A DNA stretch of 34,849 nt, taken from the NCBI GenBank assembly GCA_021810625.1, contig JAJZIJ010000025.1, positions 1-34,849 of the forward strand, read 5' to 3'. Made by a program: the position numbers and the translations under genes. Source of the stretch: Acidobacteriota bacterium. GTDB lineage: Bacteria; Acidobacteriota; Terriglobia; Terriglobales; Acidobacteriaceae. The notes under the pieces were generated by a model, which saw only the letters and a program-made list of their open reading frames with translations, was not told the origin of the DNA and did not search any database. Shown here piece after piece: positions 12,111 to 25,532 of the stretch (the stretch's first letter is position 1; each line of letters opens with the position of its first letter).

Positions 12111-13202
12111 ATGCGCCGACTGATCTCCTTCCGCGACTTTGATTGGGTTCTGCTCGGCTTTGTGCTGCTGCTCTCCGTGGTCAGCGTGCTGGAGATTTAC
12201 AGCGCCACGCTGCACACCAAATTCATCCACTTCGACCAAAAACAGATACTGTGGCTGCTGGGCAGTTTGGTCTGCATGTTTGCGTTCTCATTCATCGACT
12301 ATCATCTGCTGCTGGACGTCGCGCACTGGGCCTACGGATTTTGTATCGTCGCTCTGCTTGCAGTGCTGCTGGCAGGCCAGCGCGTTTTGGGCGCGCGGCG
12401 CTGGATTCGCCTGGGCAGTATCCACTTTCAGCCTTCGGAATGGGTCAAGCTGGTGCTGATTGTTGCTGTTGCCCGCTACTTTTCCCATCTGGCGGGCCGG
12501 AACCTTGGCTGGGGAGATATTTTCAAGGCGATGGCGATGGTGGGCGTGCCCATGCTGCTGGTTCTCAAACAGCCCGATCTGGGCACGGCGCTTACCTACG
12601 TTCCGATTCTGCTTTGTGGCCTGTTTCTGGGCGGCATCAGTTTCAAGAAAGCTGCCATTTTGGTGCTGGCAGGCGGGCTGGCCATCATTCCCGTCTGGCA
12701 TAAGGTTCTTAAACCATATCAGAAACAACGACTTGTAAGCTTTTTGCAGCCGGATAACGACCCGCGCGGCAGTGGCTACCAGATTCGTCAATCGCTGATT
12801 GCCGTCGGCTCTGGAGGCATCTGGGGCAAGGGCGCGACCAAAGGCACCCAAACCCAGGGCGACTTTTTGCCTATCCCATATACGGATTTTATCTTTGCCG
12901 CTTTTGGCGAAGAACATGGATTCGTTGGTGCTGCCCTGGTGCTGCTGCTATACTTTCTTATATTGATGCGTTTGATTCAAAACGCTCAAACCGCCGCTGA
13001 CCTTCCCGGCACGTTGATTATCATGGGGGTTGTGGCGGTGTTGATCTTTCAGATCGCGGTCAATGTGGGCATGGTCATTGGTTTGATGCCAGTTACCGGC
13101 ATCCCCCTGCCCCTGATGAGTTATGGCGGTTCATCGGTGCTGTTTACGTTTCTGGCGCTCGGCATCGTGATGAACATCCGCATGGGTCGCTTTGTGAATT
13201 AG
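12111..13202 (+). CDS. rodA: Peptidoglycan glycosyltransferase RodA
   Basis: This 363-residue SEDS-family membrane protein polymerises lipid II into glycan strands for side-wall growth with PBP2. It has about ten hydrophobic segments and the SEDS signatures GARRWIRLGSIHFQPSE (94-110), PIPYTDFIFA with the conserved catalytic Asp region, and TGIPLPLMSYGGSS near the C terminus. Gene order mrdA-rodA with a 12-bp gap is the classic pairing. GAAG lies a few bases before ATG 12111. It ends the rod cluster; a 7-bp hairpin follows 12 bp after the stop. Confidence 0.95.
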   Translation: MRRLISFRDFDWVLLGFVLLLSVVSVLEIYSATLHTKFIHFDQKQILWLLGSLVCMFAFSFIDYHLLLDVAHWAYGFCIVALLAVLLAGQRVLGARRWIRLGSIHFQPSEWVKLVLIVAVARYFSHLAGRNLGWGDIFKAMAMVGVPMLLVLKQPDLGTALTYVPILLCGLFLGGISFKKAAILVLAGGLAIIPVWHKVLKPYQKQRLVSFLQPDNDPRGSGYQIRQSLIAVGSGGIWGKGATKGTQTQGDFLPIPYTDFIFAAFGEEHGFVGAALVLLLYFLILMRLIQNAQTAADLPGTLIIMGVVAVLIFQIAVNVGMVIGLMPVTGIPLPLMSYGGSSVLFTFLALGIVMNIRMGRFVN

Positions 13203-13673
13203 GTTTCGCTGGCTGGCGCGCCCAGAAGCGCGCCGTTGGCAGAGAGTTTTCGAGATTTGCATTCGCTTGCGCGCGCCATTGGGCGTCGGATGCGGATGCG
13301 GTAGTTTTTCCTGGTCAGACAGCTTCCATGTTGACCGGGCAGGATATGCGGAGATGCATGTACAGGAAAGGGTAACGGCCCCACCTCCCTTCGAGGCAGT
13401 CGCGGTCACAATTTCCTCGTACTCGATTCTCTGGCGTTGCAGCCAGAATGGTTTGTTTTCCGTGCCCCTTTGTGGTCGCGGGGGAGTGCGGGTTCCACGA
13501 CTTCCGGCAAACACCTGGTTCGCAGCGTCCGCTGCATCGCATCTTCATACTCCCGCCACAGTCTTGACCGCCTGCCGTTGCTGAATGCAACCATGCAGCG
13601 GATGGAATCTGTCTCGCCATTACCCCGGACACCCTGGGCAAACGCCCCGGTATCCGGTTGATTATGAGGCAGC
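13203..13673 (+). other. Long non-coding leader between rodA and the RNase gene
   Basis: These 471 bases have no credible gene on either strand; the short open frames lack family resemblance. A perfect hairpin GGCGCGC/GCGCGCC (13215-13221 and 13228-13234, 6-nt loop) lies just after rodA, but no strong T run follows. Several further partial complementarities suggest a structured 5' leader for the RNase E/G gene. In enterobacteria the rne leader mediates autoregulation; a similar role here is inference. Confidence 0.45.
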
Positions 13674-16600
13674 ATGACAAAAGAAATTTATATTTCCAGC
13701 ACTCCGCACGAAACTCGTCTGGCGCTTGTCGAAGACGATCAACTCGCGGAAATCTACTACGAACGCGAAAACGAATACACCCTTGCAGGCTCCATATATA
13801 AGGGCCGCGTCACGCGCGTCCTTCCCGGAATGCAGTCGGCTTTTGTGGACGTGGGATTGGAACGCGATGCCTTCCTGTATGTAACGGATTTCATTGAAGA
13901 AGCTGGGGAAGACGACGAGATCGTCGCGTTGCCGCAAGGCCATGCTCCGCAGGAAAATGCGCGCAACGAAAGCAGGAATGACAATCGGGAAGCCCATACC
14001 GACAACCGAAATGCTCCACGCGGCGAGAATCGCAATGCGGTTCGTCCGCCCACGCAGGAGACCACTCCGACGGAGGGAGTCGAGAGCGATGCGGAAGCCT
14101 CCGGGGAACAGGGGCAGGGCGCGCGCCGCTGGCGCGGACGCCGGGGTCGTCGTCGCGGCAATGACCGTGGCAACAACCAGCGGCAGCAAGCCCAGAACCC
14201 AGAGCGCACTCCAGATGGCGCGCCCGCCGCGTCCCTCGAAGCTTCTTTTTCCTCGGATACCGATCCACTGGAAGAACCGGACTTTGTCGAAGCGGAGATG
14301 CAGCAGGAATCCCGTCAGCCCTCGCATAGCTCTGGCCGCCCATCGCGCGGCGAACATCGCGCGGCGGATTCCCCCAGAGAATTCAGGAAATCCAAAGAAT
14401 CCAGCGCCGCCGCGCTGATTCTCCCCGGCGAATCGTTGTCCAAGTATCGCCGTGGCGGTGAACCAGCCCCGGCAGCCTCCGGCGCGATTGCTGGCACGAC
14501 ACACGCGCCCACCCCCGTAGTCTCCAGCGCTCGACCTTCCACCCTGGTCGAAGCGCCCCTGGCTTCCTGGGATGGCGGTCTGCAACTCCCCGGCGAATCT
14601 CTCTCTCGCCGCCGCAATCCTGCTCCAGCCAAAGCTGTTGCAGTCCCGCCGATTGAGGTTGCTGCGACTCCGGCCACTCCAACAGCGCCTGCGGTTGAAT
14701 TCGCGCATACGGAAGCCGCGCCGGAAACTGCCGTTGCGGAAATACCCGCCTCCGCAGTCGTCGAAGCAGTCGTCGAATATGAGCCGACCGAGGCCTCTGC
14801 CTCCCATCTGGTCGATCCCACCACGCCCAGCGCCTATCGCCAGAGCCATGTGGTCGAGCCGGAAGCAATCATCGCAGATGCCCCTGCATCCACCGTCCCC
14901 TCTACGCTCGAAGACGCTCCGCCCAGCGCAAACGCGCCTACGGAGATGCTCGAAGACGACGAGGAGTCTTCCTCCAACGCCAATTTTGACGAAGATATAA
15001 ACAACGATTCCAGCGAGGCCACGCTGCATGCCTTTGCTCCCGGCACCGGAGTGCTGGAAGAAGAATTGATTGACGAGGAAGAGGAAGAAGCTCCCGCTGT
15101 CTACGCGCTGTTGGACGAGAGCGGGCTGGACGAGTTGACCGAAGAGACTCTCGATGTCCAGATGGATGCCGACCTGCTGAGCGACATGGTGCGCGATGCC
15201 CAGGTCGAGAAGCGCACCCGTTTCCAGGAAGTTCCAAACGGCCAGACGCTCACGGAAGCAGACGAAGACGAATCCAACGCGGCTGCATCCGAAGAGGAAT
15301 CGGACGAGGACATCTCCGACGACATTGACGAAGAAGAAATCGGCGAAGAAGAATCCGACCTGAGCGAAGAGGAGGATTTTGCCTCCGAGGAGGCGGACGG
15401 CGACCGCGTCGAAGGCTCCCCCGAAGAAGCCAGCGGAACAAACAGCGCATCTCGCCCAGCGGCCTCGCGCTTTGGGAATCGCAATCGAGGACGGCAGCAG
15501 GGCAATCGCCGTCGCATGGGAGGAGGGCACAACGGAGGACAAGGCGGACGTGGCCGACGCGCCACCGCGCAGATGTCCAACCTGCCCGCCATTACGGAAC
15601 TGCTGAAATCCGGCCAGGAGATTCTGGTTCAGATTGCCAAGGAACCCATTGCCCGCAAGGGCGCGCGCATCACCAGCCACATCGCGCTGCCGGGACGTTT
15701 TCTGGTGTTCATGCCCACGGTGAACCACGTTGGCGTCTCGCGCAAAATCGCCTCCGACGAGGAGCGCCAGCGCCTAAAGCGCATTTTAGTCAGTGAAAAA
15801 GGCGATGTGGGCGGTGGATTTATCGTGCGCACAGCGGCGGCAACGGCCAGCGAAGAAGACCTGCGCGCCGACATTCGCTTTCTGCTGAATTTGTGGGCGG
15901 ATATTCGCCAGCGCTCGGAAAGCTGCAAGCCTCCGGCGCTGATCTATCACGATCTCAGTCTTGTGGAGCGGGTTCTGCGCGATCAGGTCAGCGAAAATTT
16001 CTCCACCATCTGGGTCGATACCGAGGCCGACTACGAGCGCGTACTTCGCTTCCTGCAACGCTTTCAGCCCTCGCTGATTCGCCGCGTCAAGCTCTACACC
16101 AAAGAGACGCCGCTCTTTGAGCAATTCGGCATTCAGGAGGAGATCAACAAGGCGCTGCGCTCGAAGGTCTGGCTCAAATCCGGCGGCTCCATCGTCATCA
16201 ACCAGACGGAAGCTCTTGTCGCCATCGACATCAACACCGGAAAATATGTCGGCAAGACGGCGCGGCTGGAAGACACCATTCTCAAAACCAACCTCGATGC
16301 CATCCCGGAGATTGTTCGTCAGATTCGCCTGCGCGATCTGGGCGGCATCATCGTCATCGACTTCATCGACATGGACGAGCGCAAGAATCGCAACCGCGTC
16401 ATGCAGGCGCTGGAAGAGGAATTGAAATCCGACCGCGCGCCTTCCAAGGTTCTCCAGTTCAACGATTTCGGATTGGTGGCCATCACGCGCAAGCGGGTCA
16501 AGCAATCGCTGGAGCGGACGCTCTCCACTCCATGCAACGTCTGCGCGGGCACGGGCATGGTGAAGAGTCCCGTGACGGTCTGCAACGAGATTTACATCGA

Positions 16601-16784
16601 GCTACGCAAGATGCATCGCCATCTGGAGCGCCAGGAAATTATGCTGCGCGTACATCCAGAGGTGGTCAAGCATCTCAAGTTGAACAACGCTCATTGGCTG
16701 GGCGAGATGGAAGAACTGTCCGGCAAGACGGTGATCGTCAAGAGCGATCCCAGCCTCCACCCGGAGCAATACGATATCCACTAA
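13674..16784 (+). CDS. rng: Ribonuclease E/G with giant insert in the S1 domain
   Basis: This 1036-residue endoribonuclease acts in mRNA decay and rRNA maturation. The N terminus (1-75) starts an RNase E/G S1 domain (SIYKGRVTRVLPGMQSAFVDVG). About 560 low-complexity residues follow, and the S1 domain resumes near 640 (SGQEILVQIAKEP). The catalytic part holds the Mg-binding aspartate regions VAIDINTG and IIVIDFIDMDERKNR, and the zinc-link CNVCAGTG. The insert has an arginine/glycine block (150-170), a two-copy LPGESLS motif (250-259 and 305-314), a strongly acidic stretch (about 425-575) and a second basic RG block (597-630). GAGG precedes ATG 13674. Residues 1-75 and 640-1036 fit an RNase G-sized core, so either name (rng or rne) is possible. 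Confidence 0.92.
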   Translation: MTKEIYISSTPHETRLALVEDDQLAEIYYERENEYTLAGSIYKGRVTRVLPGMQSAFVDVGLERDAFLYVTDFIEEAGEDDEIVALPQGHAPQENARNESRNDNREAHTDNRNAPRGENRNAVRPPTQETTPTEGVESDAEASGEQGQGARRWRGRRGRRRGNDRGNNQRQQAQNPERTPDGAPAASLEASFSSDTDPLEEPDFVEAEMQQESRQPSHSSGRPSRGEHRAADSPREFRKSKESSAAALILPGESLSKYRRGGEPAPAASGAIAGTTHAPTPVVSSARPSTLVEAPLASWDGGLQLPGESLSRRRNPAPAKAVAVPPIEVAATPATPTAPAVEFAHTEAAPETAVAEIPASAVVEAVVEYEPTEASASHLVDPTTPSAYRQSHVVEPEAIIADAPASTVPSTLEDAPPSANAPTEMLEDDEESSSNANFDEDINNDSSEATLHAFAPGTGVLEEELIDEEEEEAPAVYALLDESGLDELTEETLDVQMDADLLSDMVRDAQVEKRTRFQEVPNGQTLTEADEDESNAAASEEESDEDISDDIDEEEIGEEESDLSEEEDFASEEADGDRVEGSPEEASGTNSASRPAASRFGNRNRGRQQGNRRRMGGGHNGGQGGRGRRATAQMSNLPAITELLKSGQEILVQIAKEPIARKGARITSHIALPGRFLVFMPTVNHVGVSRKIASDEERQRLKRILVSEKGDVGGGFIVRTAAATASEEDLRADIRFLLNLWADIRQRSESCKPPALIYHDLSLVERVLRDQVSENFSTIWVDTEADYERVLRFLQRFQPSLIRRVKLYTKETPLFEQFGIQEEINKALRSKVWLKSGGSIVINQTEALVAIDINTGKYVGKTARLEDTILKTNLDAIPEIVRQIRLRDLGGIIVIDFIDMDERKNRNRVMQALEEELKSDRAPSKVLQFNDFGLVAITRKRVKQSLERTLSTPCNVCAGTGMVKSPVTVCNEIYIELRKMHRHLERQEIMLRVHPEVVKHLKLNNAHWLGEMEELSGKTVIVKSDPSLHPEQYDIH
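14421..14615 (+). repeat. Two-copy LPGESLS motif inside the RNase insert
   Basis: Bases 14421-14450 encode LPGESLSKYR and 14586-14615 encode LPGESLSRRR, 55 residues apart in otherwise unconserved sequence. The first 14 bases (CTCCCCGGCGAATC) are identical in both. A basic cluster follows each motif. It looks like a short linear binding motif, comparable in principle to the partner-binding microdomains in the disordered tail of E. coli RNase E. Confidence 0.6.
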
Positions 16785-16804
16785 CTCAACCTTGCCGCAT
16801 TCCT

Positions 16805-16845
16805 TCTGACCTTCCACGGGGAAATATCTTTGCTGGAAGGTCAGA
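16805..16845. terminator. Large hairpin between convergent genes
   Basis: A 12-bp perfect inverted repeat (TCTGACCTTCCA at 16805-16816, TGGAAGGTCAGA at 16834-16845) encloses a 17-nt loop. It lies between the end of the RNase gene and the end of the tonB gene, which converge. There is no clear T run on either side, so it may act as a bidirectional 3'-end or stability element, not a classical intrinsic terminator. Confidence 0.45.
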
Positions 16846-16961
16846 GGCGTTTACAAATCTTTCCGATGGGTGCTTTCCACCGTCCTGCGCGAGATACACT
16901 GCAACGGATGATCCTGCGGCACCCGCTGTTCCTCAGGCATTTATGCGATGGGTTCTACGCA

Positions 16962-17828
16962 TCAATATAAGTGGAACTCCACGTCGATCAATATCTGCAC
17001 AGGTACAGGGTGCCCCTGGTACATGGCTGGCCTGAATTTGTAATGCCTCACAGCCTCGATGGCCTTTTCGTCGAGTCCCATGCCGAGATGGCGAATGACG
17101 CGGAGGTCTTCCGGGTTTCCTTGTGGATCGACGATAATCTGGATCGAGACGATGCCCTGATACTTCGCCCGGCGCGCTGCGTCTGTAAACTCCGGCTCAG
17201 CGGTATGGATGATTTGTGGTGCCGTGACTCCTCCACCCACGGTCATAATGCCGCCCCCATAGCCACCAGCGCTGCCAGGCCCAACGCCAACACCATGATT
17301 CGATCCCATACCTCCACCTATACCCTGGCCAAAGCTGGAACCCTTGCCGCCCCCCTGAGAGATCAGCGTGACCTGCGCTGACTGCATATCCCCGATGTTG
17401 GGCATCTTACTATCGGGAAGCTTGATCTGCTGAGGGATTACCTCTGCTGGCATCACGGCCAGCTTGGGATGGCCAATCGTAAGAGTCGCGAGAGGAACGA
17501 TCTGCATTTTTGTAACTGGCGGTACTTGTCCCTTGCTGGTTTTGACTATTTCGCGCGCTCCACCACCACCACCGCCACCCATCGTCTGAATAGCAGGCAC
17601 GGTAATCGGGATATAGGGTTGGATATCAACAGGAGTTACTTCCACCTGCAACGGTAAGACGATCCGTTTATGTTCCTGGAGAGCAAACCAGAACAAAAAT
17701 GTAAGAATCGTTGCGTGCAGGACGAACGAGATCAAGCTCGACAGCGGGTCGCGTTTGCAGACCAGTGGGTTGAAAATCGCGATCGGTTGCGATGTCAATT
17801 GAGGATGGTTGAATGCTGGATTACCCAT
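16962..17828 (-). CDS. tonB: TonB-family energy transducer
   Basis: This 288-residue protein has a cytoplasmic N terminus, one membrane segment (about 31-51), a periplasmic linker and a C-terminal TonB domain (about 205-288). The typical text is AEPEFTDAARRAKYQGIV and AVRHYKFRPAMYQGHPVPV. TonB proteins transmit proton-motive force from ExbBD to outer-membrane transporters; no exbBD or receptor gene is in the window. The linker is glycine-rich (seven glycines at 84-90) instead of the usual proline-rich type. It is the last gene of a minus-strand run after the TPR and nucleotidyltransferase genes, 122 bp downstream. A hairpin lies between a good Shine-Dalgarno and ATG 17828. Confidence 0.88.
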   Translation of the reverse strand: MGNPAFNHPQLTSQPIAIFNPLVCKRDPLSSLISFVLHATILTFLFWFALQEHKRIVLPLQVEVTPVDIQPYIPITVPAIQTMGGGGGGGAREIVKTSKGQVPPVTKMQIVPLATLTIGHPKLAVMPAEVIPQQIKLPDSKMPNIGDMQSAQVTLISQGGGKGSSFGQGIGGGMGSNHGVGVGPGSAGGYGGGIMTVGGGVTAPQIIHTAEPEFTDAARRAKYQGIVSIQIIVDPQGNPEDLRVIRHLGMGLDEKAIEAVRHYKFRPAMYQGHPVPVQILIDVEFHLY

Positions 17829-17868
17829 AATTGCTTGCCGGGAGGCAGAAATCCCGGCATCTCCTTTT
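17829..17868 (-). promoter_or_regulatory. Hairpin between Shine-Dalgarno and tonB start
   Basis: On the minus strand AAAAGGAG is followed by two bases. A hairpin of GCCGGGA and TCCCGGC with an 8-nt loop (17837-17858) comes next, then eight bases and the tonB ATG. Linear spacing from AGGAG to ATG is 32 nt, too long for initiation. Folded, it becomes about 10 nt. An ATG directly behind AGGAG would open an out-of-frame 21-codon reading frame overlapping the tonB start. Confidence 0.45.
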
Positions 17869-17950
17869 ATGATGCTCCACCGGTTATGTGTTAGTCGCAG
17901 TCACTGCCAGCAAGGTCTTGCGCTGGCTTTGTCGAATCTGTGATTGCCGA

Positions 17951-19078
17951 TTACCAAATACCTTTATCGCTCCCAGTGATTTTTTGTCCAACGGCAGCCG
18001 CTGTGGCAAGCCACGGCAGCAGACTAAGACGAGCGCTACTGTGCAATTCTCGCTTGCGCAGCAGCCCGGCAAGTTGGGTTCCATAGAGTCGCACAGATTG
18101 CGGCATAATGGGGACACGCAAGTAGCCTTGGCCAAAGTAGACCGCATCTCCGCCAAACTGCGCTGCATCCCAAACAAACTGGGGAAGATTGAGACCTGTT
18201 CCGCGGTATTTTTTTACGTAGTCCGAAACAATCGCAAGATACGTCGCCACGCCTTCCCATATACCAGACGCATTCGCTGAAGCGCGCATATCCTCATAGT
18301 CGATGGCACATGATTCCGATAGCGAGGATGTGTCTACAACATCGCACAACCGGAAATAGAAATGGCGATACATCCGTTGCAGTGTAGAGATCATCACGCG
18401 ATCCGAGGCTGCTGGCACGCGAAATTCTTTATCGTCAATACAAACCGATTGCGCGCGGCTCACCAGTCGCGAAGCAAGTGTAAGCTGTTCCCCTGTCTGG
18501 CCCAGACGGCCCATGTGAATCTCAACTGCTTCTGGTAATCCAGGAATAATAAAGTTCCATTTGTGCGCCAGACGATCTCCCCAGCTTCGGTATGCTATTT
18601 GCGCCTGGAATCGCCGCTTCATCAGTTGAGCGATCTTTTCTACATCCGAATCCGTATACATATCCAGATCGCTGCCAAGATCGGGCCAATGATCCAGCGA
18701 TTTAATCACCATCGTCTCCAAGCCTTCCTCTTTGAAGGCAGAGCAAATTGCAGACAGAAACGACATCGCATTTTTAATGCGCTCTCTCTCTGCTGCCAAA
18801 GCGGTAAGTACCCACTCTGTACGCGTGTTGTCCTGTACTTGGCGCAGAATGCCAAGGGCAACATCGAATCCACGCATTACTACATGGTTTGAACTTGCAA
18901 GTTTCAGTAAGTCTTCAAATTCCTCTTTATTGATATCTGTTATTCCTGTATTCAGACCGTACAGATAAAACCCACCAGCGATAGGCGCAGATTCTTCCTG
19001 GTAACGCGGAGAAAATAGCAGGCGAGAAAGAATCGTCAGAGACCTGGAGGAAATGGGTTGGGCAGTTGACTTAGACAT
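17951..19078 (-). CDS. Putative nucleotidyltransferase (NTP_transf_5-like)
   Basis: This 375-residue protein resembles the uncharacterised nucleotidyltransferase family often found in polysaccharide and peptide-modification loci. The key motif is KSLDHWPDLGSDLDMY, with GSDLD at 135-139 providing two metal-binding aspartates. A possible third acidic residue is E186 in AVEIHMG. The N-terminal 100 residues are helical, and the C-terminal half holds helical text (MYRHFYFRLCDVVD) like other members. The substrate is unknown. It starts 21 bp after the TPR gene stop, so the two are probably co-transcribed. The ribosome site is weak (GAGAGAAG). Base composition is clearly more AT-rich than the flanking housekeeping genes. 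Confidence 0.65.
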   Translation of the reverse strand: MSKSTAQPISSRSLTILSRLLFSPRYQEESAPIAGGFYLYGLNTGITDINKEEFEDLLKLASSNHVVMRGFDVALGILRQVQDNTRTEWVLTALAAERERIKNAMSFLSAICSAFKEEGLETMVIKSLDHWPDLGSDLDMYTDSDVEKIAQLMKRRFQAQIAYRSWGDRLAHKWNFIIPGLPEAVEIHMGRLGQTGEQLTLASRLVSRAQSVCIDDKEFRVPAASDRVMISTLQRMYRHFYFRLCDVVDTSSLSESCAIDYEDMRASANASGIWEGVATYLAIVSDYVKKYRGTGLNLPQFVWDAAQFGGDAVYFGQGYLRVPIMPQSVRLYGTQLAGLLRKRELHSSARLSLLPWLATAAAVGQKITGSDKGIW

Positions 19079-19099
19079 GTGGAAGCGCTTCTCTCGGTG

Positions 19100-20269
19100 T
19101 TAGTTGAGTGTCTGTGGCCAGGTTTTTAGCGAAATTGTGGCCGACGGCGGGTTGGGTGATACCCCAGTCTTTGCATGGGTATTGTCGCGATGTATCAATT
19201 GAACCGGCTCTGTTTGCATACGCTCTGTCTGGCTGTATTGATCGATTTCTCTGTCCACCCCAAGGTCACTTTTCCGGGCAACAGAAACAAGGTGCTTTCC
19301 TTCCGCTGAACGTTGCGTCGCCAGTCCAATGCGAGCATCTGCGTCGTTTGCCTTCCGCGCTTTGGCGTAATAAAAATGCGCCGTTTCCAGATCGCCATCC
19401 TTCTCTGCAACATAGCCAAGGTTGTTGAGCGAAAACGCATTGTTAGGATCGAGCGAGTACGCTTGGAGAAAGTCTTGCTTCGCGGCGCGCCAATCGTTTC
19501 GATTCGTCGCTGCCACTCCACGCAAGGTGAGCATCGTTGCACGCGCATCCGCAGCATTTACACCCTGCATTCGCTTTCTCAATTGCTGAGCACTGTTGGC
19601 GGCTCTCTCGCTGACGGGCTTCCCTCGCCAGGAGCGCTTCAACGTGACAACAATTGGCTCTGGAGAGTGCAAACCAGCAGCTTCATCGTAATACTCCAAA
19701 GCACGCTGAAAATCTCCGGCGGCTTCCTCGACAACCCCAAGATTATTCAAGGTGAATGGATTTTTTGGTTCTATAAGTAGCGCCTTCTGGAGGAGAGTAG
19801 TCGCTTCAAAATTTCTACTCTGTGCTACAAGCTCCATTGCTTGAATGTTTAAATGATTCACGCGCATAGGGGTATCCTTCAAACCCGTAAGAGCGTAGGT
19901 CATAGGTTTCCCCTCAAGCTGTTTTGAATTGCTGATGTCGATCAACGCATCGCAATTTTGTTCCGATGCCAACGCATAAAATTTTTGAGCGCGCGCAAGT
20001 TCTCCCTGTAGCTCAGAGATATAGCCAAGATTGTTTAAGGTGAAAGGATCAGTGGAATCGTAAAGATATGCCTTGTAGAAAATCGCTTCCGCCTTTTCAT
20101 ACTGCTGCTTCCGTATTGCATTCACGCCTTCGCGATTTAGTCGCTGAACAGGCGTCAGATGGCTACGCTTCGGAAACGTGACCCGAATATCGCCCGCCCA
20201 GGCGCACTGAAAGCCAAAAACAGTAATAACTGCAACCATCGCGAGCAATTTGATCCGCTTATTAAACAT
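19100..20269 (-). CDS. Secreted tetratricopeptide-repeat protein
   Basis: This 389-residue protein has a signal peptide (about 1-25, cut after CAWA), so it is probably periplasmic. It contains three long units of about 100 residues. Each unit has a TPR pair centred on (D/N)PFTLNNLGY-like text (74-83, 170-179, 277-286) and a closing segment ending in GK (about 120, 216, 324). TPR arrays bind protein partners. It is first in a minus-strand run with the nucleotidyltransferase and tonB. AAAAGG lies 7 nt before ATG 20269. A TACCC/GGGTA inverted repeat lies upstream in the intergenic region. Function is unknown. Confidence 0.75.
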   Translation of the reverse strand: MFNKRIKLLAMVAVITVFGFQCAWAGDIRVTFPKRSHLTPVQRLNREGVNAIRKQQYEKAEAIFYKAYLYDSTDPFTLNNLGYISELQGELARAQKFYALASEQNCDALIDISNSKQLEGKPMTYALTGLKDTPMRVNHLNIQAMELVAQSRNFEATTLLQKALLIEPKNPFTLNNLGVVEEAAGDFQRALEYYDEAAGLHSPEPIVVTLKRSWRGKPVSERAANSAQQLRKRMQGVNAADARATMLTLRGVAATNRNDWRAAKQDFLQAYSLDPNNAFSLNNLGYVAEKDGDLETAHFYYAKARKANDADARIGLATQRSAEGKHLVSVARKSDLGVDREIDQYSQTERMQTEPVQLIHRDNTHAKTGVSPNPPSATISLKTWPQTLN

Positions 20270-20484
20270 TTAATGCCTTTTACTTTCCCATATACCCGAA
20301 AATTCTCCGTTTGGGTACACGTTAGCTAGTAAGATGCGTAAAACAAGAATATGGTGCCGCGCAATTCTTGGTATTTACTTGTGATATTTATACAACGCGG
20401 AAATACTTCCAGACCACCTGGTTCCCATTAACTCCATCTAAGAGTGGATGCCGAGAAAATAATTGAGCGGCAATGGAGTGCCAA

Positions 20485-21408
20485 ATGGATCGTTTTCTTA
20501 CAGGGGTTGTACTTGGAATCGTAGCGATTTCCCACATATCCCTGGCAGGCACGCAATCAGAGAAGGGTATGGGAACGCAGTCCGTCGCAACGCTGGACAG
20601 TGCTCCCATGATTTTGCCCGCGTTGCCGCCACTGCCCACAGGGAAGAGCACAGTAATTGGCGGTTCTATTCGCGATGTAGACTTCGTGCGTGACCAATTT
20701 ACGCTGAAAGTCTTCGGCGGGCATTCGATGAAAATCCTTTTCGACGAGCGCACTCATATCTATCGAGACGGGATCAGAACTTCGCTGCGCGATCTTCACC
20801 CGGAGGATCACGCCTCCATCAAGACCACGCTGGATGGAACAAGTATCTTTGCTATAAACATTCATATTTTGTCGAAATCTCCCGAAGGGGAATGCCAAGG
20901 TCAGGTGCTTAGCTATGATCGAAAAACTCGTGTGTTAACCATAAGTTCTGTTCTTTCTCGTGAACAGATCGAACTCCGCGTGCCAAGAAATACGCCCATC
21001 GTCCGCATAGGTCAGGCTCGTCAGGATCAGGCTGCATCTTCTTCGTCTGGCTCTGCTTCGGCAGGATTCGACTCACTTGATTTTGTCAAAGGCACTCTGA
21101 TCTCGGCCAAATTTGTATCTGATAACAAGGGGCGAGGTGTTGTCAGCCAGATCGCGATCCTGGCTGCTCCAGGATCAGCATTTGTGTTTAGCGGGAATGT
21201 TATCTCCATCGACCTGCACTCCGAGTTATTAGTGCTGGTCGATCCCCGTGACGATAAAACATATCAGATATTCTTTGATCCATCGCTATTTCCTGTGAGC
21301 CGGGATATTCATGAAGGGGCGCATGTGACCGTAACCACGAAGTTTGATGGTGTTCGCTACGTGGCCAGAGCGATTACAGCCAACTACACGCACAGTCCAG
21401 GCAATTGA
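20485..21408 (+). CDS. Secreted protein with three DUF5666-like beta modules
   Basis: This 307-residue exported protein has a signal peptide (MDRFLTGVVLGIVAISHISLA). Three similar beta-rich modules lie at about 56-130, 136-230 and 232-302. Each has the pattern G-x-(V/I)-x-S/D-(V/I)-D, a strand such as FTLKV, LTISS or LLVLV, a charged loop, and a closing VxVxT/I segment. This resembles DUF5666-type OB-like repeats, but the assignment is tentative. ATG 20485 is preferred over ATG 20473 because GGAG lies about 5 nt upstream. It is divergent from the TPR gene across about 215 bp and shares its AT-rich composition, so the two may be functionally linked. Confidence 0.6.
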   Translation: MDRFLTGVVLGIVAISHISLAGTQSEKGMGTQSVATLDSAPMILPALPPLPTGKSTVIGGSIRDVDFVRDQFTLKVFGGHSMKILFDERTHIYRDGIRTSLRDLHPEDHASIKTTLDGTSIFAINIHILSKSPEGECQGQVLSYDRKTRVLTISSVLSREQIELRVPRNTPIVRIGQARQDQAASSSSGSASAGFDSLDFVKGTLISAKFVSDNKGRGVVSQIAILAAPGSAFVFSGNVISIDLHSELLVLVDPRDDKTYQIFFDPSLFPVSRDIHEGAHVTVTTKFDGVRYVARAITANYTHSPGN

Positions 21409-21494
21409 TGGCGCATGCTTTTCCAGCGAGTGGAAGGAGACACTACGGGACGGATTCCACACAGGATTCAGCGCTCAACGACACCAACGCCGCC

Positions 21495-22853
21495 TCAACG
21501 GTCATGGAGGCATGATCTTGCGTATTTTCTCTGGGTCGAATCCTGTAAATCGAATCCCGACTTCTGCATTCGCTTCCTATCGGCCTTGTTCATGGTTGCC
21601 TGCAATAACTGGATGGCATTCGTAAGATCGTTTGCCGTTACATCCCGCTCCTCTTCAAATGCCGTCTGTCCGGCGAGGATGTAGCTTTCCCGCAATTGTG
21701 CGAAGGACAGCCCTTCGCTGGCGATTGCACAGATGTCCAGAGCCTCCCCAACGAGCGCCGGACACATCTTCTGCAAATAGGTTGATCTCAATTCTTTCGT
21801 TGGATTGCCAAACTCGATGACTCGATCGAACCTTCCCGGACGGCGCAGGATGGCTGTATCCAGAACTTCCGGGTGATTGGCAGTCGCAACTACAATCATG
21901 CCGTCCTGCGTGCTCACTCCGTCGAGACAATTCAACAGTTGCTGTAGGCTGACGTTTGACTTTTCGTTCTTATCCAGTCCAAAGAAAAGTCTGTCGATAT
22001 CCTCCAGCACGACCAGCGCAGGCGTATTTTCCGTTGCATTCCTGAAAAATGCTTGCAGCCGATCATCGTCCATCTCCGACGTGACCAGATTGGCCGCAAA
22101 ACCGGAGATTCCCGGATGCGAGAGCATGGCGCGAATCACGCTTGTCTTGCCGTTGCCGGGCGGCCCATGCAGCAGGTAGCCGCGCCGAAACGGAAGTCGA
22201 TTGGCGCGAAACCATGCTCTGCGCTGAAAGAATGATTCAAAGTCATGCCGCAGCAGCCTGGTTGCCGTCTCGTCCAGCACCACATCGCTCCAGGTCGCAG
22301 GAGCAACGGCAGTAGGCTCCGACACGCCAAAATAGCGCATCGAGGGAAGGTGATACGATGCCTGACATTTTTCGATCAAAGCGAGCAGTTCCTCCACCGA
22401 GTCGCGGCGCACCAGCGTCACCTCACGCCAACTCGAACCTTCATAGATAGACTGGTGGGGCACGTTGATGAAGATTGCCGGATGCTGCATCCCTTCAAAG
22501 TGGAGAGCCACCGGGCAATCCTGCCACTTGGTTTTCCAGATGAACTCTGGCTCCCCCTGCGCCGCCAAATTGTTTGAGAGTTTTTGAATGGTTAAAGATG
22601 GCAGAACATTCGGCGGCGTGCTGACCCGCCGCACCTTCGCCGAGAATGCTGAATGGCCCAATTGGCATGTGTCCCAAGGCAGCGTCTTCGGCAGTACATG
22701 CGGCGCAGCCAATTTCACCAACTCCAGGCCTTTGATGCGTAGCTGCAACGCTTCCGATAATGGCAGTCTCAGGGTTGCTTCAATCCATTGTTGATGGCGG
22801 TACACATGCTCACGCGCTATTGCTGTCAGTGGTGCGAGTTGGATCAGACTCAT
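21495..22853 (-). CDS. BCS1-like AAA ATPase
   Basis: This 452-residue protein has an N-terminal region of about 190 residues without recognised domain and one AAA domain. The AAA domain has Walker A GPPGNGKT (230-237), Walker B-like LVVLEDID (280-287), sensor-1 N326 in VVATANHPE, and arginine fingers in RRPGRFDRV (337-345). The order and spacing match the BCS1/FtsH-like clade. No transmembrane helix is obvious. GAGGGG lies about 8 nt before ATG 22853. It is divergent from the WYL gene, and a copy of the shared 18-bp site lies 36 bp upstream of its start. BCS1-like ATPases occur in several bacterial defence loci, but this gene alone does not prove that role. It converges with the secreted-protein gene. 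Confidence 0.7.
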   Translation of the reverse strand: MSLIQLAPLTAIAREHVYRHQQWIEATLRLPLSEALQLRIKGLELVKLAAPHVLPKTLPWDTCQLGHSAFSAKVRRVSTPPNVLPSLTIQKLSNNLAAQGEPEFIWKTKWQDCPVALHFEGMQHPAIFINVPHQSIYEGSSWREVTLVRRDSVEELLALIEKCQASYHLPSMRYFGVSEPTAVAPATWSDVVLDETATRLLRHDFESFFQRRAWFRANRLPFRRGYLLHGPPGNGKTSVIRAMLSHPGISGFAANLVTSEMDDDRLQAFFRNATENTPALVVLEDIDRLFFGLDKNEKSNVSLQQLLNCLDGVSTQDGMIVVATANHPEVLDTAILRRPGRFDRVIEFGNPTKELRSTYLQKMCPALVGEALDICAIASEGLSFAQLRESYILAGQTAFEEERDVTANDLTNAIQLLQATMNKADRKRMQKSGFDLQDSTQRKYARSCLHDR

Positions 22854-22889
22854 TGGTTTTTCCCCTCTGCTGATATTTCCGCACAGTGG

Positions 22890-22958
22890 GTGGGACAGCC
22901 GGGGTCACATGTCTGTTGATTTCAAAAAAATTCTTTGCGATGACCTCGGTTGTCACAC
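22890..22958. promoter_or_regulatory. Paired 18-bp operator-like sites in divergent promoter
   Basis: Reading towards the AAA gene on the minus strand, 22907-22890 is TGACCCCGGCTGTCCCAC. Reading towards the WYL gene on the plus strand, 22941-22958 is TGACCTCGGTTGTCACAC. The two agree at 15 of 18 positions and face the same way relative to the gene each precedes (36 and 21 bp before the starts). The second site contains the palindrome TGAC-N7-GTCA. WYL regulators such as BrxR and CapW bind inverted repeats in their own promoters, so these are likely sites of the neighbouring regulator. Confidence 0.6.
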
Positions 22959-22979
22959 CGACTGCGGTACAGTTTTGAC

Positions 22980-23984
22980 ATGAGGGGCGGCCAGATTTCG
23001 CGTGTACTCAAGCTGCTGCATCTGCTGCAGGGGCGCGGACGCACGTTGCAGCAACTCCGCGCCGAGCTGGGCGTGGCCAAGCGAACCATTCAGCGCGATA
23101 TTCAGGTGCTGGAGCAGAACGGCTTTCCGGTTACTTCGGAGCAGCACCACCGCGCCATTCATTGGCGGCTTATGTATGACCCAGTTCTGGAAGGGCCGCT
23201 CGACCTGACCCAACAGGAGCGCATGGCGCTCTACTTTAGCCGTGGCCTGCTCAAGCCGCTGGCAGGCACGCCATTCTTTGAAGCCATCGAGTCGGCGCTT
23301 GCCAAAATTGGCGCGGGCATCTCCGCCCCTGGGCACACCCTGCTCCACAGCTTTGACAGTCAGATCGGCATCGGCGCCTTCGGCAGCAAAGACTTTACCC
23401 GCTCTCGCGAAGTCATCGCGGCGCTCACTCGCGCCATCCAGCACCATTTCACCGTTAAGATTACGCACGCAACCCCGCAGCATCGCAATGCGGTTGAGTA
23501 TCAACTGAACCCATACCGTCTCCACTACCATCAGGGCGGCTTGTATCTTATCGCGCTCGACCATGCGAAGGACGACCTCCGCACCTTCGCCGTGGAACGC
23601 ATCCGCGCCGTTGCAGTCACGCGGAGCCGCTTCACTCCACCACCCACAACCATGCTGGATGAGTTGCAATCGACTGCCTTTCAACTGATACACGGCGAAC
23701 CCCAACGGGTGCGCATCCGTTTCTCGCCGGAGCAGGCTCCGTACATTGCTGAACGAAAATGGCATGAATCGCAAACCCTCGAACCGCAGCCGGACGGCAG
23801 TGTGATACTCTCGCTCCGTGTCGCCAGTCTGTGGGAAGTCAAACGCTGGCTCATCGGCTGGGGTGCGGATGCAGAAGTTGTGGAACCAGCGGAGTTGCGG
23901 GATACGGTTCGTAATGAGTGTAGGCAGTTGCTTGAAATTGTTTGTGCCACTGGAGAGTACGAATGGGAACAAGGCATGCACTGA
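22980..23984 (+). CDS. WYL-domain transcriptional regulator
   Basis: This 334-residue protein has an N-terminal winged helix (about 5-60; AELGVAKRTIQRDIQVLEQ), a WYL domain (about 140-220; the signature reads GLYLIALD) and a C-terminal WCX-like domain (about 240-320; VRIRFSPEQAPYIAERKWH). Such regulators sense a nucleic-acid or nucleotide ligand and repress defence genes in several known systems. ATG 22980 is chosen over a TTG 30 bp upstream, although neither has a good ribosome site. Its 3' end overlaps the nuclease gene by 22 bp, implying one transcript and coupled translation. GC content is like the core genome, unlike the next gene. Confidence 0.8.
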   Translation: MRGGQISRVLKLLHLLQGRGRTLQQLRAELGVAKRTIQRDIQVLEQNGFPVTSEQHHRAIHWRLMYDPVLEGPLDLTQQERMALYFSRGLLKPLAGTPFFEAIESALAKIGAGISAPGHTLLHSFDSQIGIGAFGSKDFTRSREVIAALTRAIQHHFTVKITHATPQHRNAVEYQLNPYRLHYHQGGLYLIALDHAKDDLRTFAVERIRAVAVTRSRFTPPPTTMLDELQSTAFQLIHGEPQRVRIRFSPEQAPYIAERKWHESQTLEPQPDGSVILSLRVASLWEVKRWLIGWGADAEVVEPAELRDTVRNECRQLLEIVCATGEYEWEQGMH

Positions 23985-25018
23985 AGTGTTCAATCGATGG
24001 CTGTAAGCAGCCAACCGTCAAGTGCTGGGAGTGCGGCAACGAGTATCCGATTTGTCGCAAACATGCAGTGCCGAGCGGGAAACACACTGGGGCATATCTT
24101 TGCCCGCGCCCAGAGTGTGCGGAGAGCCATGCTGAGCCTGTTCTTTGGAGGGTAAATATGACCCATCACGCGGATGCAGTAGATGCGGCGTGGCGTGCCA
24201 GTGTGGTTGGCATAGGATGGCCGGTTTCTAATGGGCGTGATGACATGTCATGGAAGAGTTATGAAACTAGGGCGAAGAGAAAATACGCGGAAAGCTTGTC
24301 AAGATGGAAATCTCATTTAACAACGCTACGGGTCAAAATTGCCGCCGATGACTTGGTAATCACTGCCAACACTCGCAGAAAGTGTTTCTATCTCGGACGG
24401 GTCACAGGGGGCTGGCGCTATATTAGTTCAGGGTATCCGGGCAATGCTCAGCTCGTAAACACGCGCGCGTGTGATTGGGTTCGCGTGGAACTCGATGAAG
24501 TGCCAGGCTCCCTGATCTTCAAGAGGGGAACATTTAACGCGGTCAGCAACAATTTCATCCGCGATTACTGCAAACATCTATACAATACCCGTAATCGCAC
24601 AGGATTCAAGTATAAGGAATCAACTGGATCTGGCGATGGTGAGTCATTCTTCGACTGTTTGACATCTGATGCTTGTGAGGACATGGTCGCTCTCTACCTA
24701 CATCGTCGGCACAACTATTCGATTAGACCTAGTTCGTGCAAGACTTCGTCACAGGGTTGGGAGTTCGCCATTCTTGATGTGAGCGGAGCACGTGCTTTTG
24801 TCCAAGTCAAGAACGGCAAGATTGATTTGAAAGCTGAAGAATACAGACCGAGCAAAGGCTATCACGCTTTCTTATTCACGAGAGGCAATGTCATCGGAAA
24901 GATCCCCAATAATATGACGGTACTCAGCCCGGATGAGATGTTGGATTTTCTGAGGCGCGAAAGAACGAGATTTCCGAGCGAGCTCAGTTTTTGGGTTCAC
25001 CGCTTTTGGAGAGATTGA
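23963..25018 (+). CDS. Zinc-finger / reader / PD-(D/E)XK-like nuclease, putative
   Basis: This 351-residue protein has three parts. Residues 9-52 hold C9, C14, C21, C24, C31, H34, H41, C47 and C52, a likely zinc-binding module. Residues about 85-195 include DDLVITA, FYLGRVTGGWRYI and VNTRACDWVRVELDEV. This resembles the PUA-like segment that precedes the catalytic domain in some Mrr-like restriction proteins. Residues about 225-335 contain E239, then GWEFAILD (265-272) and FVQVKNG (279-285). Together these fit a PD-(D/E)XK core of the QxK type (Q281, K283). A modification-dependent nuclease is the best guess; the fold is inferred from motifs only. GGAGAG 5 nt before ATG 23963 fixes the start inside the WYL gene. 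Composition is markedly AT-richer, suggesting transfer. Confidence 0.55.
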   Translation: MGTRHALKCSIDGCKQPTVKCWECGNEYPICRKHAVPSGKHTGAYLCPRPECAESHAEPVLWRVNMTHHADAVDAAWRASVVGIGWPVSNGRDDMSWKSYETRAKRKYAESLSRWKSHLTTLRVKIAADDLVITANTRRKCFYLGRVTGGWRYISSGYPGNAQLVNTRACDWVRVELDEVPGSLIFKRGTFNAVSNNFIRDYCKHLYNTRNRTGFKYKESTGSGDGESFFDCLTSDACEDMVALYLHRRHNYSIRPSSCKTSSQGWEFAILDVSGARAFVQVKNGKIDLKAEEYRPSKGYHAFLFTRGNVIGKIPNNMTVLSPDEMLDFLRRERTRFPSELSFWVHRFWRD

Positions 25019-25244
25019 ATGCGTCCGCGTATTGCGCTGCCCATTGGGTTCATTAGAAGGGGATGCCAAGCAAAAATACTTTTCTTCCGCGAGGAGGGAA
25101 TGTTTTTTCGACATTCAGCCCCCATCTACAGTTGCACAAATCCTGGCCAGGGCGCAGTATGCAAAGCCACTCCCGCCACAGAGTCCGAACACGGACGGTT
25201 TGAAGAATGGATAGAATAGCTACTCTATGGGGAGGCATTCTGTC

Positions 25245-25532
25245 ATGGTCAAAGTCACATCCGTCGAGGCGCAAAACCGTTTTGGCCAGTTGATCGACAT
25301 AGCGCAACGGGAGATCATCACCGTGACGCGGCATGGACGGCCAGCAGCATTTATTGTCTCTCCGCGCGACATGGACGAACTGCTGGACGCGCGCAAACGG
25401 CGCAGCCGCGCCGTAGCCGAGTTGGAGGCATGGTCTGCCCAGGCGCGCAAGCGTCAATCCCCGGCACAGGCCGCCGCCGCTGCAAAGTTGACCGACGCTG
25501 AGGTAAATCGCTTGGTACATGCGGCGCGATGA
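25245..25532 (+). CDS. Phd/YefM-family antitoxin, apparently orphan
   Basis: This 95-residue protein begins KVTSVEAQNRFGQLIDIAQRE and continues TVTRHGRPAAFIVSPRDMDEL, the usual Phd/YefM N-terminal DNA-binding fold. The C-terminal part (about 55-95) is alanine/arginine-rich and helical, as expected for a toxin-binding tail. ATG 25245 is preferred over ATG 25227 because GGGGAGG lies about 9 nt upstream. No toxin of the PIN, RelE or Doc type is adjacent: the nuclease gene ends 226 bp before it and the next gene, prmC, converges. It may be a remnant or act on a toxin elsewhere. Confidence 0.8.
   Translation: MVKVTSVEAQNRFGQLIDIAQREIITVTRHGRPAAFIVSPRDMDELLDARKRRSRAVAELEAWSAQARKRQSPAQAAAAAKLTDAEVNRLVHAAR

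Follow-up and report, generated by a model that had tools for sequence, protein, structure and literature searches.

Does a WYL regulator gene that runs into a nuclease-like gene mark a defence module, and if so, which genes belong to it? The question is raised by a 34,849-nt stretch of DNA (contig JAJZIJ010000025.1 of an Acidobacteriota bacterium, hereafter the window), in which the gene of a 334-aa WYL regulator (22980..23984, + strand, ATG start) overlaps by 22 bp (23963..23984, + strand) the gene of a 351-aa nuclease (23963..25018, + strand, ATG start). An original prediction had proposed these two genes as a new defence module. Both reading frames are indeed open, the overlap has the predicted length, and the ribosome binding site claimed for the second gene is present as GGAGAG, ending 5 bases 5' of the ATG. 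The parts which that prediction overlooked are the novel part of the locus: a divergently transcribed gene for a 452-aa AAA+ ATPase (21495..22853, - strand) and two operator-like sites in the 126-bp gap (22854..22979) between the AAA and WYL genes. We propose that the locus is probably a three-gene, WYL-controlled AAA/effector defence cassette, which here carries a predicted modification-dependent endonuclease.

The AAA-WYL pair and its operator-like sites

The WYL regulator has a helix-turn-helix (HTH), WYL, and WCX architecture, with Pfam matches to HTH_11 (E value, 2.6e-9), WYL (1.5e-16), and WCX (3.6e-25), each above the Pfam cut-off. In the AAA+ protein, ~190 N-terminal residues of unknown fold precede the AAA domain (Pfam AAA, 1.1e-21). 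A search with this N-terminal domain found the ATPase in 14 of 398 family genomes, that of the window being one of them, and the window protein is 37-46% identical to 12 aligned family homologues, a truncated one (L112) having been left out of the alignment; labels of the form L### and G### denote homologues, loci, and genomes in this analysis. A window-type WYL gene lies in the AAA locus in 6 of the 13 other family genomes (G016, G900, G759, G983, G265, and G917), and with the window the two genes occur together in 7 genomes of 5 genera. When the 21 AAA-bearing genomes were searched with the WYL regulator, exactly these 7 gave scores of at least 315 bits, while elsewhere no score exceeded 54 bits; among the genomes searched, identities of 49-55% to the window protein were confined to the six other AAA-WYL genomes. 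G016, for example, combines a WYL gene 55% identical to that of the window with a divergent window-like AAA gene and a different, 335-aa gene that overlaps the WYL gene by 8 bp.

In the aligned gaps, a motif close to RTGACCTSATCTGTCRYACC appeared as two inverted copies. A matrix built from 11 sites of the six other AAA-WYL loci, with the window sites excluded, was used to score the 69,656 22-mers of the window, and the two best both fall in the AAA/WYL gap. The site by the WYL gene (22939..22960, + strand) ranked first with 19.76 bits and the site by the AAA gene (22888..22909, - strand) second with 16.05 bits, followed by 9.06 bits at rank 3. In leave-one-out runs both sites ranked first and second in four of the six loci (G016, G900, G759, and G265), and in G983 the three best sites were two ahead of the AAA operon and a third ahead of the WYL gene, which lies ~5 kb further on. 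The maximum of the matrix in 16 loci without a window-type WYL gene was 13.9 bits. A pattern fitted to the window's own two sites, GACCNNNNNTGTCNYACC, has two occurrences in the 2.45-Mb genome, and both lie in the AAA/WYL gap (the reversed control occurs once); given this confinement, the WYL regulator appears dedicated to this locus.

The third gene differs from one AAA-WYL locus to another. Where the window has an EVE-PD(D/E)XK protein of the PDC-S02 type, five of the six other loci have some other nuclease-like gene, two of them recognized by Pfam above the cut-off and three by a sub-threshold match or by eye. The protein of G759 matches Mrr_cat (3.2e-5, above the cut-off) and shows weak PDC-S02 matches, and that of G983, encoded between AAA and WYL, matches GmrSD_N (1.2e-25, above the cut-off). 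PDDEXK_4 is matched below the cut-off both in G016 (0.0034, with a weak PDC-S26 match) and in G900 (0.043), where the gene overlaps the WYL gene by 4 bp; the 209-aa protein encoded behind AAA in G265 has no Pfam match and looks like a PD-(D/E)XK enzyme by eye. In blastp comparisons among six third-gene proteins no match fell below an E value of 0.01, and the window and G759 proteins, with 20 residues in common at an E value of 0.018, may be distant kin. The recurrence of the regulator and ATPase genes beside different DNA-cutting enzymes suggests that the locus may be an antiviral defence of modular, switchable design.

WYL relatives of 30-33% identity to the window protein were also considered as members of an AAA-WYL unit. 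A large ATPase-like gene, presumably SbcC/YhaN-like, lies directly beside the WYL gene in one of five such loci and nearby in two, with none in the remaining two. We rejected these loci, as none of the five has a window-type AAA among its called genes and the operator matrix stays below 14 bits in all of them.

A sequence search of solved structures with the WYL regulator returned 9 matches, all WYL-domain chains with generic titles, PafBC among them and neither BrxR nor CapW named in any title. They include 8tp8 (titled DeoR-family; E value, 9.2e-14), which we take to be DriD, and 6sj9 (4.4e-11).

The PDC-S02 nuclease of the window

Residues 61-346 of the nuclease match PDLC04816, the model of PDC-S02 in PADLOC-DB 2.0, over profile positions 3-292 of 299, with an E value of 7.6e-58, and the same model is matched by all 17 rows of our nuclease alignment, window included. 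Seven residues of the catalytic region are invariant in these rows: E239 (24677..24679, + strand), P256, E267 (24761..24763, + strand), the Q281-V282-K283 motif (24803..24811, + strand), and G285. The core E239/P256/E267/Q281-V282-K283 is therefore no chance motif, and the C-terminal core that the original prediction had picked out, from a first Glu to VQVKN, is borne out. G85, W86, D130, V180, P181, and G182 are likewise invariant, while position 133 is Ile in the window protein versus Trp in the other 16 rows. The 17 rows, which include two near-identical sets (L009/L024/L026 and L013/L027/L028), represent 13 distinct genomic contexts; left out were partial, HNH-fused, or broken relatives (L004, L005, and L016-L019), a truncated one (L025), duplicates (L011, L012, and L030, the same proteins as L028/L013, and L014, the same as L002), and the window itself under other labels (L001, L003, and L015).

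Two domains could be distinguished in structure models of the nuclease. The predicted local distance difference test score (pLDDT) was 67 for the whole protein and 75.5 for the nuclease domain alone, the latter with a predicted template modelling score of 0.75. With the whole model, Foldseek gave weak matches (best E value, 9.1e-3) to YTH, EVE, and PD-(D/E)XK enzymes plus unrelated chains. VIA-align placed residues ~59-216 of this model on the EVE protein PH1033 (Z 8.7, root mean square deviation [rmsd] 3.4 over 116 residues) and VcaM4I (Z 8.2, rmsd 4.0 over 125), and residues 222-343 on AspBHI (Z 8.7) and MspJI (Z 8.2), Z values near 8 being modest by the program's own note. The structural matches listed for residues 59-216 (24137..24610, + strand) are EVE and YTH domains. 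For the nuclease domain alone (residues 220-351; 24620..25015, + strand), MspJI was the best Foldseek hit (5.9e-4) and the sole match at or below 0.001, and VIA-align gave AspBHI (8.3, rmsd 3.7 over 121), MspJI (8.2, rmsd 3.4 over 121), and LlaBIII (7.8). The MspJI core follows the pattern (D/E)..(D/E/Q)xK in the consulted part of PMC3874153; since the two programs agree and the E...QxK core of the window protein fits this pattern, an MspJI-type reading is good at the level of the fold. The PD-(D/E)XK core thus survived structure prediction. The segment once called PUA-like and reminiscent of the Mrr reader does have a PUA fold, of the EVE/YTH type, but the likeness to Mrr does not hold, as the N terminus of Mrr is proposed to be a winged helix in the consulted part of PMC3874153.

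Sequence profiles alone recognize little of this architecture. No Pfam family matched the nuclease above the cut-off, the sole row at an E value up to 1 being zf-AN1, and Mrr_cat (PF04471) was not matched; Pfam EVE matched none of the 17 rows at an E value up to 1. NCBIfam gave no family at up to 0.01, and the 17-row profile, searched against the sequences of the PDB, had no match at up to 1. The zf-AN1 row, at an E value of no better than 0.34, concerns an N-terminal Cys/His cluster (residues 1-60; 23963..24142, + strand). Seven Cys (positions 9, 14, 21, 24, 31, 47, and 52) and four His (5, 34, 41, and 56) occur in the first 62 residues, so that the Cys count given earlier was correct and the His count, two, was not. 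The cluster is no trait of the family, as the window protein alone of the 17 rows has it. Searched on its own, it had no match in plasmids at an E value up to 1 and matches in 5 of 99 other genomes, at no better than 0.0015-0.0084.

The sources of the homologues were plasmids, one phage record, IMG/VR, species genomes, and one relative. Single-protein scans of genome contigs and viral contigs gave no nuclease relatives; with an alignment as query (A1), the viral contigs yielded three near-identical loci only, and a three-row alignment (A3) found 10 genome loci and no new viral loci. Near home the family is rare, with 2 of 100 relatives, 3 of 396 genomes in the phylum, and 4 of 399 in the class, the window genome counted each time. 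Two relatives outside the alignment may be mentioned. L005 (1468-2385) matches PDC-S02 weakly (1.1e-4) and its C-terminal end resembles an HNH nuclease by eye, so the PDC-S02 reader may be common to other nucleases. In G580 a PDC-S02 relative is split into two fragments, of which one contains an internal stop, and is probably broken (L016/L018; G580:C1:652863-653713).

Genomic contexts and known systems

Restriction-modification, Hachiman, or retron-type genes lie near nuclease homologues in 5 of the 13 distinct contexts. In a Flammeovirgaceae genome (L021, 5564-11821) the PDC-S02 gene stands between hsdR and hsdM, as identified by Pfam, inside a type I restriction operon, and the gene downstream of the nuclease in L020, which was not scanned, starts like the hsdM of L021. 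In a Lactobacillales group the homologue has hsdRMS (from the record annotation), SIR2, and HerA nearby. Annotation places Hachiman near L006 and a retron-type HNH gene ~4.5 kb from L007, and the L029 homologue comes after a 1,756-aa helicase-nuclease. L010 adjoins an integrase in a phage and a Levilactobacillus group resides in prophages; L022 and L002 showed no known defence gene within the sequence examined. A WYL gene lies directly upstream in 3 of the 13 contexts, namely, the window, L008 (19-bp gap), and L023 (9-bp gap), as counted by phmmer with the window WYL, record annotation where present, and a few Pfam scans; a divergent WYL could be missed because only part of the upstream genes was scanned. 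The coupling of a WYL gene to a reader-PD-(D/E)XK nuclease, as originally predicted, is supported. L008 (6938-11123), on a Eubacterium eligens plasmid, has in succession a WYL gene, a PDC-S02 gene, and an AAA gene whose subtype differs (AAA + AAA_lid_6).

Other neighbours were recorded around the window nuclease and around AAA genes without a WYL partner. In the window, a Phd/YefM-type antitoxin gene lies 208 bp downstream of the nuclease gene (25227-25532); no toxin was seen beside it, and no search aimed at a toxin was made. A gene for a calcineurin-like phosphoesterase lies just upstream of three WYL-less AAA relatives (L107, 5035-5691; L111, 5219-5944; L112, 5389-5877), and the L107 copy matches PADLOC PDC-S10 (1.7e-72). 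In another family of the class, an inositol monophosphatase/ADP-ribosylglycohydrolase fusion adjoins two AAA relatives (L128, 3240-5117; L131, 2757-4694). G001, the only congeneric genome searched, is ~90% complete and gave no match in the AAA, WYL, and nuclease searches; there an 874-aa gene that looks ClpB-like by eye flanks prmC-prfA (L079, 11783-16435).

How much of the locus is already known? PDC stands for phage defence candidate in the portion of PMC11514479 available to us, the literature seen in part treats PDC-S02 as a PADLOC prediction, and the term PDC was not found in the accessible text of the PADLOC server paper. The window protein resembles PDC-S02 over reader and nuclease, but the model spans the reader-nuclease protein alone, while the window adds the N-terminal Cys/His cluster and the AAA-WYL setting. 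Section 9 of Bell et al. (2020; PMC7641849) describes the same combination of EVE-type reader and PD-(D/E)XK domain as putative type IV restriction endonucleases. In the consulted text of that paper, YafY/WYL regulators appear alongside EVE proteins in putative antibiotic-response operons rather than alongside such nucleases, and this AAA-WYL unit is not mentioned. PDC-S02 and EVE-PD(D/E)XK enzymes are therefore already known as predictions, and the novelty once claimed for the nuclease falls away. Among characterized enzymes, the MspJI family (MspJI and AspBHI) shares the nuclease fold and the (D/E)..(D/E/Q)xK core but, in the consulted part of PMC3874153, reads 5-methylcytosine through an SRA-like domain in MspJI, where the window protein has an EVE/YTH-matching reader; VcaM4I (accessible text of PMC7897488) has an EVE-type reader like the window protein but HNH in place of PD-(D/E)XK. 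CMoRE was also compared and is a GIY-YIG enzyme in the available part of PMC12923530.

On the side of the regulator, BrxR and CapW are likewise WYL regulators next to defence genes in the accessible portions of PMC9122601 and PMC9122588. Type IV enzymes make up 37 of 210 BrxR-associated systems, and regulation by WYL proteins of defence islands that contain such enzymes is already known; the whole word AAA is absent from the available text of the BrxR source (PMC9122601). The window AAA protein matches PADLOC IetA (4.7e-16), but we rejected IetAS, as the NCBIfam antiphage ATPase NF042959 was matched at 51 bits against a cut-off of 510 and no protease match was found among the 10 window proteins scanned (12111 to 25532). 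For an AAA-WYL unit with exchanged nucleases we found no description in the titles and displayed abstracts of the papers that our searches of the openly licensed literature listed.

A proposed mechanism and its alternatives

We propose that the WYL protein binds both copies of the operator in the 126-bp gap and governs the divergent AAA+ gene as well as its own gene together with the overlapping effector, a prediction based on the conservation of the sites and the overlap of the genes. On sensing infection it would open both promoters, and AAA and nuclease would be produced. In the consulted text of PMC11804915, single-stranded DNA (ssDNA) activates PafBC at its WYL domains, and the abstract of PMC12340889 places ssDNA binding by DriD within the WYL domain. 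Given this mode of activation in related WYL proteins such as PafBC, the inducer would most likely be single-stranded or damaged DNA arising in infection. Next to the WYL start, a promoter spacing of the PafBC type was considered but set aside, the motif strings sought being absent from the accessible text of the PafBC paper, and we make no claim on it. The EVE/YTH-like reader is predicted to hold a flipped modified base while the Mrr/MspJI-type PD-(D/E)XK domain would cut close by via E239, E267, Q281, and K283. Least certain is the role of the AAA+ protein, which may license, load, or restrain the effector. Together with its operators, the AAA-WYL pair would act as a chassis that related genomes retain with other nucleases.

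Several observations weigh against this cassette. The maxima of ten Markov-resampled windows ranged from 10.5 to 15.9 bits, the highest of which the weaker window site barely surpasses, and in the leave-one-out run for G917 one site came first and the other fell outside the top four. The training sites of the matrix were first chosen by aligning these same gaps, and G016, G900, and G759 are mutually close. No effector was seen in the G917 locus, and the candidate effector of G265 is placed behind AAA, not WYL. Seven of the 13 other family AAA loci have no window-type WYL nearby, and seven AAA genomes in another family of the class have no WYL among their called genes, the AAA gene itself not being recovered by the gene call in two of these stretches; AAA therefore also exists apart from the window-type WYL. 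WYL relatives of 136-159 bits occur without a window-type AAA nearby in five genomes among the 100 relatives searched. For the effector, the confidence of the models is moderate, the Z values are modest, and Ile133 lies in the reader, whose specificity may be altered or lost.

The nuclease homologues mostly lack a window-type AAA, and two Bacillota loci have just a WYL gene of a different kind ahead of the nuclease. With the seven AAA genes found apart from the window-type WYL in the family, this would fit a two-gene system of WYL regulator and stand-alone type IV (PDC-S02) nuclease, with AAA as a neighbour that shares the regulator and has a separate function. We consider it rather unlikely, since AAA, WYL, and two operator copies remain associated across 7 genomes from 5 genera despite a changing effector, since operator-like sites stand at both genes in G983 even though AAA and WYL are apart, and since on the E. 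eligens plasmid an AAA gene, if of another subtype, again comes next after the nuclease.

The solved WYL chains nearest to the regulator include PafBC and 8tp8, and 3 of the 5 loci with ~30%-identity WYL relatives have large ATPase-like genes beside or near them. A DNA-damage or stress regulon, in which a PafBC/DriD-like WYL protein turns on an AAA remodeller and a nuclease for damaged or foreign DNA and no modified bases are read, is nevertheless improbable: the nuclease carries an EVE/YTH-like domain, 5 of the 13 contexts of its family have restriction or other defence genes nearby, and among the effectors of sister cassettes are two type IV restriction domains, GmrSD_N and Mrr_cat. Very improbable, finally, is a toxin-like or decayed window copy, with a reader broken by Ile133 and an enzyme restrained by the adjacent Phd/YefM-type gene. 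The Trp at this position in 16 of 17 rows and the Phd/YefM gene 208 bp downstream would fit it, but the nuclease frame is open, the catalytic core is intact, and nothing points to a link with such an antitoxin, for which no other homologue row was checked.

The WYL-controlled three-gene cassette is thus the reading we prefer. Its extension to an undescribed modular immune system is a possibility that we raise tentatively: a dedicated WYL regulator and an AAA+ ATPase belonging to a distinct subfamily would form a conserved twin-operator chassis on which EVE-PD(D/E)XK, Mrr_cat, GmrSD-like, and PDDEXK_4-like effectors are exchanged, with the ATPase as common sensor or licensing partner. If this is true, restriction-type nucleases would be exchangeable on a regulator-plus-ATPase chassis without rebuilding control, and any gene in a locus with the AAA-WYL pair and the twin operator would be a candidate nuclease, which would offer a route to effector discovery. 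PDC-S02, hitherto a named candidate in the literature seen in part, would gain a proposed mechanism with an EVE/YTH-like reader and an MspJI-type nuclease, catalytic residues, and the hypothesis of ssDNA as inducer.

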